This document shows positions 17,868 through 21,379 of a stretch of 55,992 nucleotides of DNA, in pieces. Position 1 is the first letter of the stretch, and every line of letters starts with the position of its first letter. The stretch spans positions 1 to 55,992 of the forward strand of contig NZ_JAAGRN010000012.1 of the NCBI RefSeq assembly GCF_010499255.1, given 5' to 3'. A program made the position numbers and the translations under genes. The stretch comes from Sheuella amnicola (GTDB taxonomy: Bacteria > Pseudomonadota > Gammaproteobacteria > Burkholderiales > Burkholderiaceae_B). The notes beneath the pieces are model-generated. The model was not told where the DNA came from. It made no database searches and was given only the letters and a program-made list of their open reading frames with translations.

Positions 17868-17883
17868 CTTGACGAGCGTCAAG
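17868..17883. promoter_or_regulatory. FNR/DNR-type palindrome upstream of nrdD
   Basis: CTTGACGAGCGTCAAG is a perfect palindrome of the TTGAC-N4-GTCAA form, the core recognised by Crp/Fnr-family anaerobic regulators (FNR consensus TTGAT-N4-ATCAA). If it acts as a class II site at -41.5, transcription would start near 17917, and TTTAAA at 17902-17907 would serve as the -10. A Crp/Fnr regulator is encoded at the end of the same operon. The 2-nt loop left by a fully paired hairpin argues against a terminator. Confidence 0.6.
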
Positions 17884-17916: not shown

Positions 17917-17964
17917 ACACAATATGTAGTGATAGAGTGCCTCAAATAACACAATATGAGGTGT
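17917..17964. promoter_or_regulatory. Two NrdR boxes upstream of nrdD
   Basis: ACACAATATGTAGTGA (17917-17932) and ACACAATATGAGGTGT (17949-17964) match the NrdR box consensus ACACWATATATWGTGT. Their starts are 32 bp apart, about three helical turns, the arrangement usual for this ATP/dATP-sensing repressor of ribonucleotide reductase genes. The second box overlaps the nrdD ribosome-binding site. nrdR itself is not in the window. Confidence 0.85.
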
Positions 17965-17967
17965 TCT

Positions 17968-19704
17968 ATGAAAATTGATTCGGATTGCGGCCGACAGACC
18001 TTGGTGGATGTCGAACATGCAATGGAAGAGTATCTTGAACTACGGGACTGGCGGATTCAGGCAAATGCAAATCAGGGCTACAGCCTGGGTGGTTTGATCC
18101 TGAACGTGGCAGGTAAGGTCACGGCCAACTATTGGCTATCCCATGTGTTTTCACCTCAGGCGGGACATGCGCATCGAAATGGAGACATTCATATTCATGA
18201 CTTGGATATGTTTGCCGGTTATTGCGCAGGTTGGTCTTTACGCCAGTTGTTGATAGAGGGGTTTAACGGCGTGCCCGGTAAGGTTGAGGCAACCCCGGCC
18301 AAGCACATGTCGGCGGCAGTCGGGCAGGTTGTCAATTTTTTAGGTACGTTGCAAAACGAATGGGCGGGTGCTCAAGCCTTTAGTTCATTCGATACGTATA
18401 TGGCACCGTTTGTGCGCCAAGATCGCATGAGTTACGAGCAAGTCCGACAATGCATGCAGGAGATGGTCTACAACCTGAATGTGCCAAGTCGTTGGGGAAC
18501 ACAAACGCCGTTTACGAATCTCACATTCGATTGGACATGTCCGGATGATTTGAAAGAGCAGGTTCCGTATATCGGCGGCAAGGAAATGCCATTTTGCTAT
18601 GGCGAGCTACAAACCGAAATGGATATGATCAATCGGGCATATATCGACGTGATGATGAGCGGCGATGCGAATGGTCGGGCCTTCACGTTTCCGATACCCA
18701 CCTACAACATCACTTATGACTTTGAATGGGATAGCCCCAATGCCGATCTGTTGTTCGAAATGACGGCCAAATACGGACCTCCGTATTTTCAGAATTTTTT
18801 GAATTCGGATCTCCAGCCTCACATGGTTCGATCCATGTGCTGTCGCTTACAGCTCGATCTGAGAGAGTTGCTCAAAAGAGGCAATGGTCTTTTCGGGTCG
18901 GCCGAGCAGACCGGAAGTATTGGCGTGGTGACGATCAACTGTGCAAGGCTGGGATATTTATATGCTCAAGATGAGCCCGGCTTACTGAATCGACTTTTGG
19001 AATTGCTTGATTTGGGTCGGGATGTATTAGAGATGAAAAGAAAGGTCGTACAGGAATATATCGATAAAGGTTTATATCCCTATACAAAACGATATCTGGG
19101 CACCCTTAGAAATCATTTCAGTACATTGGGCGTAAATGGATTGAACGAAATGATCAGAAATTTTTCGCTTGATCATTTCGATATTACGACTCCTCAGGGC
19201 CAGGCGATGGCGGAGAGAATACTTGATCATGTGCGCAGCCGAATAACGTTATTTCAGGAGCAGACCGGTCATATGTATAACCTGGAGGCTACTCCGGCTG
19301 AAGGCACAACATATCGATTTGCACGAGAGGATCGCAAACGCTGGCCCGACATTATTCAGGCCGGCACCGAAGATGAACCTTATTACACGAATTCAAGTCA
19401 GTTACCTGCCGGGTTTACGGATGATCCATTCGAAGCATTGACTCTGCAAGAGAGATTGCAATCCAAATACACAGGCGGGACAGTTTTGCATCTTTACATG
19501 AATGAGGCAGTTTCATCTGCCGTTGCATGCAAGCAGTTGGTTCGTCGCGCGCTTTCCAGCTTCAGGCTTCCTTATCTGACAGTCACGCCGACCTTTTCGA
19601 TATGTCCTAGGCATGGTTATTTATCGGGACATCATGAGTTTTGTCCAAAATGCGATGCAGCCTTGCTGGCAAAGCAAGCAGAACAATTTGAAGCTGTAGT
19701 TTGA
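17968..19704 (+). CDS. nrdD: Anaerobic ribonucleoside-triphosphate reductase NrdD, core chain lacking the glycyl-radical segment
   Basis: A 578-residue class III ribonucleotide reductase core. It begins directly in the catalytic barrel (LRDWRIQANANQGYSLGGL), with no N-terminal ATP-cone. The HNGDIHIHDLD-type motif is seen as HRNGDIHIHDLD, an active-site cysteine is plausible in SMCCRLQLDL, and TINCARLGYLY follows. The zinc site near the end reads CPRHGY and CPKC. The protein then stops, whereas normal NrdD continues into the RVxGY glycyl-radical loop. That loop is encoded by the next gene. AGGTG precedes ATG 17968 by 4 nt; the in-frame ATG at 17956 lies inside NrdR box 2. Control by NrdR and an FNR-type factor is indicated. 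Confidence 0.92.
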   Translation: MKIDSDCGRQTLVDVEHAMEEYLELRDWRIQANANQGYSLGGLILNVAGKVTANYWLSHVFSPQAGHAHRNGDIHIHDLDMFAGYCAGWSLRQLLIEGFNGVPGKVEATPAKHMSAAVGQVVNFLGTLQNEWAGAQAFSSFDTYMAPFVRQDRMSYEQVRQCMQEMVYNLNVPSRWGTQTPFTNLTFDWTCPDDLKEQVPYIGGKEMPFCYGELQTEMDMINRAYIDVMMSGDANGRAFTFPIPTYNITYDFEWDSPNADLLFEMTAKYGPPYFQNFLNSDLQPHMVRSMCCRLQLDLRELLKRGNGLFGSAEQTGSIGVVTINCARLGYLYAQDEPGLLNRLLELLDLGRDVLEMKRKVVQEYIDKGLYPYTKRYLGTLRNHFSTLGVNGLNEMIRNFSLDHFDITTPQGQAMAERILDHVRSRITLFQEQTGHMYNLEATPAEGTTYRFAREDRKRWPDIIQAGTEDEPYYTNSSQLPAGFTDDPFEALTLQERLQSKYTGGTVLHLYMNEAVSSAVACKQLVRRALSSFRLPYLTVTPTFSICPRHGYLSGHHEFCPKCDAALLAKQAEQFEAVV

Positions 19705-19726
19705 ATATTATTCCGGGAGTTCAATC

Positions 19727-19930
19727 ATGAATCAGGTGAATCAAGTCGAATACCATCAATTAGCCGCCAGTTCGCTGGCTGAGAGCTCAAGAACACGGTG
19801 TGAAGTGTGGACAAGAGTGATGGGATATCACCGTCCAGTCAGTTCGTTTAATACCGGCAAGAAGGGGGAGTTCAAAGAGCGAAAGTTTTTCGAGGAATCA
19901 AGGGTGAAATGCAACGACAATCAGATTTGA
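19727..19930 (+). CDS. Separate glycyl-radical subunit of NrdD
   Basis: This 67-residue protein carries the missing C-terminal end of NrdD: CEVWTRVMGYHRPVSSFNTGKK, with the RV-x-GY glycyl-radical motif at about residues 30-34 and the usual FNxGKxxEFKxR tail. It starts 22 nt after the nrdD stop in a different frame (+2), with GGGAG 7 nt before its ATG. It is therefore a separately translated gene rather than a simple read-through product. The first 22 residues are an unrelated linker. NrdG, which generates the radical, is encoded ten bases downstream. The arrangement recalls YfiD/GrcA, a spare glycyl-radical piece for pyruvate formate-lyase. A frameshift in an ancestral fused gene is the alternative, but the clean start argues against it. 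Confidence 0.88.
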   Translation: MNQVNQVEYHQLAASSLAESSRTRCEVWTRVMGYHRPVSSFNTGKKGEFKERKFFEESRVKCNDNQI

Positions 19931-19939
19931 GACGTGTAA

Positions 19940-20650
19940 ATGCGCCGTGAAGGATCTGCGATAGGCGGTTTTGTGCCGTTTTCGAGCTTGGACTGGCCGG
20001 GCCAGCTTGCTGCCGTTGTATTCATCAAAGGATGTCCCTGGCGTTGCGATTATTGTCATAACCCGCATCTTCAAAGCAGGAAGACGATTCCCGTTGTCCA
20101 TATCGAGTCTCAAAATGCTCAAGGGAGTTTGGACTGGGATCGGATTCTCGAGTTTCTGGATGCGCGCAAGACTTTATTGGATGGCGTTGTTTTCACGGGC
20201 GGAGAGCCATTTACCGAACCGAATCTTGAAGAGATGATTGGACAAGTGCTTCACAAAGGATTCAAAGTCGCGGTTCATACGGCGGGCATGTATCCATCCA
20301 AACTTGAAAGGTCTCTGGAGTCACTTTCATGGGTTGGATTGGATATTAAAACCAAGGCTGAAAATTATGATTCGCTGACGCATCGCTCTGGAAGCGCCGA
20401 GCCGGTTCGCAAAACCCTGGAAAAATTGTTGAAGAGTGATGTTTCCTTCGAATGTCGTACTACATGGAGTCCGCAATGGCTATCAGAATCGGATTTAATT
20501 GATCTGGCGCAAGACCTGAGTGCCCAAGGCGTGAGGAAATATGCAATACAGAGATTCCGTTCGCTGGCGCATCGATCCGTAGGACATGAATTGAGTGAAC
20601 AGAGTCTGCGAATTTTAGACAGTCTGTTCGAGCAATTTACCTATAGGTGA
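19940..20650 (+). CDS. nrdG: NrdG, anaerobic ribonucleotide reductase activating enzyme (radical SAM)
   Basis: A 236-residue radical-SAM activase that would place the glycyl radical on the small NrdD subunit using S-adenosylmethionine and a [4Fe-4S] cluster. The cluster motif CPWRCDYC (CxxxCxxC) is at about residues 32-39, preceded by GGFVPFSSLDWPGQLAAVVFI, typical of the TIGR02495 (NrdG2) branch. TGGEPFTEP (about residue 80) is the SAM-binding GGE motif. The ribosome-binding site is weak, suggesting coupling to the preceding small gene. The next gene starts immediately at its stop. Confidence 0.93.
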   Translation: MRREGSAIGGFVPFSSLDWPGQLAAVVFIKGCPWRCDYCHNPHLQSRKTIPVVHIESQNAQGSLDWDRILEFLDARKTLLDGVVFTGGEPFTEPNLEEMIGQVLHKGFKVAVHTAGMYPSKLERSLESLSWVGLDIKTKAENYDSLTHRSGSAEPVRKTLEKLLKSDVSFECRTTWSPQWLSESDLIDLAQDLSAQGVRKYAIQRFRSLAHRSVGHELSEQSLRILDSLFEQFTYR

Positions 20651-21379
20651 ATGATGGGAAAGGTACAGGATACTTTTGAGCTGTTATCTCACTTGAAGCT
20701 GTTCGATGGTGTCTCCCCCGAGGTGCTACGGAATTTGGCGGATGCGTCCGTGCGAATCAGGCATCAGAAAAATGAAATGATTTTTCGGCGTGGAGATCTG
20801 GCGCGTGGCCTATATGTTGTTGTGATCGGAGAAGTCAAAATATCCATTCCGTCACAGCAAAGAGAGAAGGTGATCGAGTTTATCGGCCCCGGGCAAGCAT
20901 TCGGGGAGGCGGTCATGTTTCTGGATCATCCTTACCTGATCAATGCCCAGGCGCTGAGCGACTGTTTATTAATGTGGCTAGACAAGCGCGACATCAAGCT
21001 CGCGATCGAACATGATGCCAAATTCTCCATGCATTTACTGGAGGGGTTATCCCGCAGGTTCGAGACGTTATTGAACGACATCGAAGTCGTTAATCTTCAT
21101 ACCGCAATCGAAAGGGTCACCGGATATTTGTTAAGTTTAAGTAACGAAGGCGAGGGTTTGATGCACTTGCCCAATAAGAAAATGATCGCTTCCAAGCTAG
21201 GCTTGACACCCGAAACGTTTTCGCGGGCGCTGGGCCAGCTAGCCCAGAGTGGATTTATATCGGTTCATGGATCAAAAATACAAATACTTAGAGAATCCCG
21301 TGGCCAACAGCATAAATCGCCGCTTGAACCCGGTTCGAGAGACCGAGCTTCTTCAGGATACTTTGCAAGTGTATTTTGA
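20651..21379 (+). CDS. Crp/Fnr family transcriptional regulator
   Basis: A 242-residue regulator with an N-terminal cyclic-nucleotide-like effector domain (EMIFRRGDLARGLYVVVIGEV, then FIGPGQAFGEAVMF) and a C-terminal winged helix (KKMIASKLGLTPETFSRAL, about residues 178-196). It has no N-terminal cysteine cluster, so it is not an FNR-type iron-sulfur sensor; it resembles DNR/NNR-type regulators of denitrification. It is the last gene of the nrd operon and is well placed to act on the FNR-like palindrome before nrdD. The final 29 residues extend past the wing and are coded antisense to the end of narL, a 92-bp convergent overlap. Confidence 0.87.
   Translation: MMGKVQDTFELLSHLKLFDGVSPEVLRNLADASVRIRHQKNEMIFRRGDLARGLYVVVIGEVKISIPSQQREKVIEFIGPGQAFGEAVMFLDHPYLINAQALSDCLLMWLDKRDIKLAIEHDAKFSMHLLEGLSRRFETLLNDIEVVNLHTAIERVTGYLLSLSNEGEGLMHLPNKKMIASKLGLTPETFSRALGQLAQSGFISVHGSKIQILRESRGQQHKSPLEPGSRDRASSGYFASVF

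Follow-up and report, generated by a model that had tools for sequence, protein, structure and literature searches.

A likely two-chain class III ribonucleotide reductase whose glycyl-radical segment is encoded by a gene of its own

How can an anaerobic ribonucleotide reductase work when its catalytic chain ends before the residue that should hold the radical? This question is raised by an operon of Sheuella amnicola on contig NZ_JAAGRN010000012.1 (RefSeq assembly GCF_010499255.1), of which the stretch analysed, 55,992 nucleotides (nt) long, is called the window below. The textbook class III ribonucleotide reductase (RNR) carries the radical on its own C-terminus. An earlier note on this DNA had said the same of the known enzymes, and a family review and an RNR database paper agree, placing the radical glycine in the NrdD chain. 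In the window, the radical glycine motif is absent from NrdD and present only in a small neighbouring gene. We consider it very likely that the operon encodes a class III (anaerobic) RNR in two chains, with the small protein as its radical subunit.

The catalytic chain is encoded by nrdD at 17968-19704 on the forward strand (578 amino acids (aa), 65.6 kDa). Its open reading frame (ORF) opens at an alternative ATG at 17956 (582 aa), but the start at 17968 used in the earlier note is to be preferred, having GAGGTG 4 nt ahead of it. The chain has the barrel sequence and fold of a class III NrdD, matches positions 2-528 of the 562 of the Pfam model PF13597 and ends in ...CPRHGYLSGHHEFCPKCDAALLAKQAEQFEAVV. 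The Cys pair of its MCCR motif (18838..18843, forward strand; residues 295-296 counted from 17956) is invariant across the 50 sequences of our alignment A2 and aligns, with low certainty in phmmer, with the SCCR loop cysteines of Thermotoga maritima NrdD, mutants of which were inactive or almost so (PMC4493059). A predicted zinc site (CPRHGY...CPKC; C550, H553, C563 and C566; 19603..19653, forward strand) stands where class III enzymes have it, just before the radical loop; in A2, H553 does not vary and conservation of the cysteines is 90% or more. The radical glycine is nonetheless encoded: a gene at 19727..19930 (forward strand, ATG start, 67 aa, 7.87 kDa) begins 22 nt past the nrdD stop in a different frame, behind a Shine-Dalgarno sequence GGGAG that can be read directly at 19715..19719 (forward strand). 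Its product contains CEVWTRVMGYHRPVSSFNTGKKGEFKER and matches PF13597 at 532-562 (E 1.3e-8), and by the motif RVMGY its radical glycine is Gly33 (codon 19823-19825). Thus, the cut falls between model positions 528 and 532 and takes off just the radical loop and tail, leaving the zinc site on the large chain. The window's large chain aligns with Thermotoga NrdD as far as residue 632, and residues 636-664 are matched by the tail family, although weakly (E 0.89). The activase gene nrdG2 lies at 19940..20650 (forward strand) with a radical S-adenosylmethionine motif CxxxCxxC, and its TIGR02495 score of 176.3 bits against a cut-off of 131.15 identifies it as an NrdG-type activase. The ORFs and PF13597 therefore bear out what the earlier note had read here, namely an nrdD ending after its zinc site and a separate radical gene in another frame with its own GGGAG; nrdG does follow downstream, at a spacing of 9 nt rather than the ten given there.

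This arrangement is not peculiar to the window. Among 160 distinct bacterial nrdD loci, classified with hidden Markov models (HMM) and deduplicated, 139 are split, 12 are fused and 9 have no adjacent tail; the loci were gathered through tail and NrdD searches, so that the ratio of 139 to 12 is no survey. The earlier note had asked whether the split is conserved in several genera and named, as a finding that would overturn it, a set of relatives all fused with this copy alone broken; these counts show the conservation and exclude the overturning case. An assembly error or a broken gene is likewise ruled out by the recurrence of the split across genome samples and the 160 loci.

Could the two genes still yield one polypeptide, by frameshifting, stop readthrough or a sequencing error? 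The tail does lie in the nrdD frame in 42 of the 139 split loci, and in two genomes described below (G337 and G402) it follows a single stop. On the other hand, the frames of the tail relative to nrdD are evenly spread (49/48/42), and the tail lies at a median distance of 36.5 nt from nrdD, the extremes being -16 and 549 nt. As 139 of the 160 loci are split, and in all three frames, the split is no frameshift. The picked tail start is ATG in 137 of 139 loci. Because the pick favours ATG and a Shine-Dalgarno sequence, the two remaining frames of each stretch were put through the identical pick: an ATG preceded by a Shine-Dalgarno sequence of at least 4 nt was found in 127 of the 139 tail frames, but in only 10 of the 278 others. 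The split is present in single-contig genomes too. Moreover, the tail lies beside nrdG but 8-9 kb away from nrdD in G067, adjoins nrdG with nrdD on another contig in G850, and is on a different contig from nrdD in G697. In these genomes neither frameshifting nor readthrough can join the chains, which refutes recoding as a general account and demands supply in trans. We regard a single polypeptide as highly improbable and are nearly certain that the radical subunit acts in trans, as the earlier note had proposed.

The tail genes are conserved as proteins. The pooled ratio of nonsynonymous to synonymous substitution rates (dN/dS) was about 0.25 for 148 distinct non-viral tail stretches, a set that also contains fused and extra copies. 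This value, and that for the viral tails given below, were calculated pairwise by the Nei-Gojobori method over 42 codons, with synonymous differences (pS) of 0.02-0.7, from 3616 non-viral and 282 viral pairs, respectively, that are non-independent. We also saw tail genes without a nearby nrdD on plasmid pALVIN01 of Allochromatium vinosum (L035) and in Sutterella sp. UBA1442 (L091); on the whole of pALVIN01, which is what that search covered, there was no nrdD.

Nine loci without an adjacent tail need a comment: in three the tail is elsewhere (L008, L235, L240), three represent an independent split (L208, L209, L227), and three give one unbroken NrdD match each (L003, L224, L258). A pattern-based earlier count had listed 118 tail places, duplicates included, of which 112 were split, 1 was fused and 5 had no NrdD beside them, as well as 2 loci without tail; two of the five were misses (L114 is split and L115 fused). 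When species genomes were scanned with the tail alignment, at least 575 relatives came up, of which 80 were kept.

Genomes matching PF13597 were counted in four samples, which overlap in part. In these, split means separate HMM matches for core and tail; most loci were not read base by base, and those inspected agreed. A core match with a separate tail was found in 33 of the 37 matching genomes among 101 relatives (4 of the 33 in a single contig), the rest being 2 fused, 1 with the tail only and 1 with a core fragment only. An even draw across the phylum (397 genomes) gave 66 matches, 19 split, 46 fused and 1 unclear. The class of G455, probably Alphaproteobacteria as judged from its tree neighbours, gave 26 split and 9 fused among 35 matches in 289 genomes, and the window's class gave 30 split, 7 fused and 2 unclear among 39 matches in 370 genomes. 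In seven regions from six genomes of the latter class, the tail ORF is apart from the C-terminal end of the core wherever that end is visible.

The split was found in Alpha-, Beta- and Gammaproteobacteria and on one Campylobacterota plasmid; metagenome bins labelled Verrucomicrobiota or Omnitrophota are split as well (L057, L098, L114), which may be binning error. It occurs on plasmids of Bradyrhizobium (japonicum), Azospira sp. I09, Sulfuricurvum kujiense and Shinella zoogloeoides, and in Pseudomonas jinjuensis and Pseudomonas sp. CAN1; the NrdD of Pseudomonas aeruginosa, which we take to be about 675 aa long, would fit the split form. Fused examples are Acidiphilium cryptum and Actinomyces oris. 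Plasmid pHG1 of Cupriavidus necator H16 carries a 676-aa NrdD and a 66-aa small gene that is annotated nrdD, 'anaerobic ribonucleoside-triphosphate reductase', so annotation sees the small gene but mislabels it as the entire enzyme. The NrdDG of this strain was termed essential for complete denitrification (PMC2864759). Cupriavidus metallidurans DNA is also split, and its genome paper gives nrdDG as Rmet_5137 and Rmet_5139, skipping the number between.

The evolutionary history bears on whether the split is of any use. It may be a neutral gene fission, a permanent complex that works like the one-chain enzyme with no benefit and no exchange. In line with this, the cut sits at a natural hinge between the zinc site and the radical loop, and fused members persist, some of them nested among split ones in the core tree, indicating that fusion is workable. 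Against it, the split/fused label changes six times on the core tree, five of these being forced by well-supported branches. That tree has 118 rows thinned from 157 and was made by a quick method, its long branches meet and its outgroup is not clean; hence only the number of changes was used, and no direction. Seven labels were set by hand (L003, L008, L208, L209, L227, L235, L240) and L224 and L258 were left unlabelled. Moreover, genus g187 has an NrdD of another subclass that is divided at this very position, in all three matching genomes of six: in G337 and G402 the tail is in frame after one stop with AAAGGG ahead of its ATG, and in G551 it is in another frame. Fission at the hinge thus happened more than once. 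A genome of the same family as g187 (G592) has a fused NrdD of the window type. Tails decoupled from nrdD, and lone tails under purifying selection on viral contigs, also speak against a neutral fission, which we think unlikely, although these points do not prove a benefit.

Lone tails are found on mobile elements. In IMG/VR, 146 relatives were confirmed and 80 fetched (L126-L205). The scan used the patterns TRVMGYH and P[VI][SDE][SE]FNxGK, so that conservation of these letters is partly built in. By HMM, none of the 80 viral stretches has an NrdD core beside the tail; labels given by looser patterns (L158 and L173 split, L170 fused, L154 missed) were overruled on this basis. In 46 of the 80 records, which were taken whole but may be fragments, none being rated 90% complete, the tail is the only PF13597 match (43 of 46 above the family cut-off) and NrdG2 was found in none. 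Flanking proteins match terminase, integrase, spanin, endolysin, DNA polymerase and clamp loader families, with two to three members each among the 89 of 113 chosen proteins scanned, from 30 of the 80 loci. The viral tails keep the radical motif and its flanks, with a pooled dN/dS of 0.29. PHROG 4132, a family listed with unknown function, is matched by the window's tail and by each of the three viral tails compared with it; in that family the glycyl-radical domain sits in the C-terminal part. Several viral tails (L144, L159, L161, L162, L170, L192, L199) are extended at the N-terminus by a Cys-rich stretch that may form a metal site.

Bacterial genomes also hold extra tails. In the class of G455, they occur in 6 of 26 split genomes (G609 with three, G665, G668, G685, G772 and G860) against 0 of 9 fused ones, and one more was found in G1081 from the sample of the window's class. 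In six of these seven split-type genomes, prophage or plasmid genes are nearby: endolysin, tail protein and recombinase in G668, a portal protein in G772, a tail collar in G665, a phage-type repressor in G685, NikA mobilization proteins beside two of the three extra tails in G609, and RecT, YqaJ and an RNR barrel gene in a prophage-like region of G1081. For G860, the single neighbour scanned matched nothing.

Such tails may be inhibitors that occupy the host NrdD or NrdG, or passengers without a role in deoxynucleoside triphosphate (dNTP) supply. Their place beside lysis, packaging or recombination genes, the Cys-rich extensions of some and the absence of both an RNR barrel and NrdG2 from all 46 whole viral records would suit this explanation. 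However, an inhibitor would not need the radical motif and flanks that are kept (the motif being partly built into the search), and in G1081 the prophage-like region around the extra tail includes an RNR barrel gene along with RecT and YqaJ. We find the inhibitor or passenger role doubtful, and suppose that the mobile-element tails probably act on host NrdD.

The proposed enzyme would work as follows. The large chain, lacking a radical glycine, would contribute the barrel, the Cys pair and the zinc site. The glycyl-radical loop and C-terminal tail would come in trans from the 67-aa protein, which would thread into the slot that the C-terminus fills in one-chain enzymes, and NrdG would generate the radical on it. 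Since the glycyl radical is where oxygen cleaves class III RNR (PMC3019208), damage would be confined to the 7.9-kDa part; the 65.6-kDa chain would be kept, and the damaged small subunit could be remade and swapped. Loose phage and plasmid copies may likewise dock on host NrdD and sustain dNTP flow. We infer this complex, its radical and its exchange from the genes. Exchange after oxygen damage is, by a modest preference, our explanation of what the split is good for. The wider picture of a widespread two-subunit RNR with a mobile, exchangeable radical subunit, whose phage and plasmid copies mend the host's anaerobic dNTP synthesis or bring it under their own control, seems to us a little better than an even bet.

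Several observations weigh against these proposals. Fused NrdDs form the majority in the even phylum draw (46 of 66). On the viral side, the missing class I/II RNR barrel in all 46 whole records counts here as well, and among phage isolates none of 50,697 records matched the window's tail at E 0.01, so that the viral evidence comes from IMG/VR contigs and prophage-like regions. Few extra tails were seen beyond the class of G455, with none in the samples of 101 relatives and 397 genomes and one in the 30 split genomes of the window's class; within that of G455, the extra tail of G665 is below the family cut-off. The AlphaFold model of the lone large chain has a mean predicted local distance difference test (pLDDT) score of 76, and residues 293-319, which hold the Cys pair, are below 50. 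In the model of the fused L115, the last 76 residues are below 50 and the tail is unordered, probably because nearly all alignment rows lack the tail. A 1999 paper on Alcaligenes eutrophus NrdD is said to have given a mass of 76.2 kDa, and the H16 chain of 676 aa, without the tail, computes to 76.19 kDa, which fits. The same paper reportedly named Gly-650 as oxygen-sensitive. By count, this is the Gly of CPTHGY in the 676-aa chain; cleavage there, if truly seen, would speak against a radical on the small protein. Its NrdG is reportedly 30.9 kDa, and neither of our computed values (25.4 or 27.1 kDa, for two starts) fits.

The surroundings of the operon are suggestive of anaerobic use, as judged by sequence. 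An FNR/Dnr-type box TTGACGAGCGTCAA at 17869..17882 (forward strand), 85 nt before 17968, matches TTGAYNNNNRTCAA exactly; the window has two such matches against 0.54 expected, and two or more arose in 10 of 100 shuffles, which makes the box suggestive only. A Crp/Fnr-family-like regulator gene, named by eye from its translation, adjoins the operon at 20651..21379 (forward strand). The scan of the operon for promoters gave 0 sites against 4.6 in shuffles, and that for terminators 2 against 2.6. Besides this operon, the host genome contains a single class I/II-type RNR barrel gene. In the Pfam search, the window's NrdD showed no recognisable ATP-cone, and the N-terminal ATP-cone region present in many relatives of about 670 aa is missing; shut-off by deoxyadenosine triphosphate may be absent for this reason.

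Some individual loci are of interest in themselves. The fused NrdD at L115:1731-3656 has its zinc ligands replaced (SPEHGY...FDPIYD) with the radical motif retained. Two split-type NrdDs (L281:834-3899 and L282, from genomes G968 and G1201) contain an in-frame intein-like insert after GTQ, that of L281 matching LAGLIDADG. On a Thiothrix fructosivorans plasmid (L040), the NrdD core is in two adjoining matches (model 2-239 and 246-531), either a broken gene or a further split. Catalase genes stand near nrdD in two cases: katG with a peroxide regulator in Shinella (L264) and a catalase in Actinomyces oris (L262).

In a large share of proteobacteria NrdD is without the radical residue (19 of 66 matching genomes in the phylum draw and 30 of 39 in the class draw), so that work confined to nrdD and nrdG, be it an assay, a structure or a knockout, may overlook a subunit. 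In the literature searched we found no description of a separate NrdD radical subunit; papers beyond that search could have one. One-chain class III enzymes (T4, Thermotoga maritima, Prevotella copri) carry the radical loop and tail in the chain, whereas here they are a separate gene product, and the window's chain differs from them also in having no recognisable ATP-cone. The catalytic subunit of class II RNR is likewise encoded in two genes as NrdJa/NrdJb (PMC9669993, PMC4860495), but without a glycyl radical. In Aeromonas phage phiAS4 and Lactococcus phage 949, nrdD is in several pieces too (PMC3653736), by interruptions that are isolated, due to an intron or unexplained, unlike a conserved two-subunit design at the radical loop.

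A further likeness is with the E. coli protein YfiD/GrcA and the T4 phage protein Y06I, small stand-alone glycyl-radical proteins that are also phage-borne and dock on a large chain (PMC8683613), as we propose here by analogy. The 67-aa, 7.87-kDa protein of the window is of this kind, except that its segment is related to the NrdD C-terminus and not to pyruvate formate-lyase (PFL): among Pfam matches to E 0.1 there was no Gly_radical, and only NRDD exceeded its cut-off. The comparison with YfiD/GrcA drawn in the earlier note thus holds as an analogy, strengthened by the mobile-element copies, and fails as family membership. YfiD repairs a PFL that has its own radical domain, lost to oxygen, while the large chain here ends before such a domain. 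As the large chain never carries its own radical loop, the small protein is an obligate subunit, more than the repair part suggested earlier; the system is GrcA-like in working and a class III RNR in two chains. According to Andorfer et al. (2021), only YfiD and Y06I are validated as spare parts and others may exist (PMC8683613); the split tails are candidates for their question on other glycyl radical enzymes, and with C. necator H16 a laboratory strain is at hand. To judge from the viral copies, anaerobic dNTP supply is of some importance to phages, and PHROG 4132 gains a meaning through them. If our reading is true, the loose tails would serve an essential enzyme as spare parts and would be to RNR what Y06I of T4 is to PFL.

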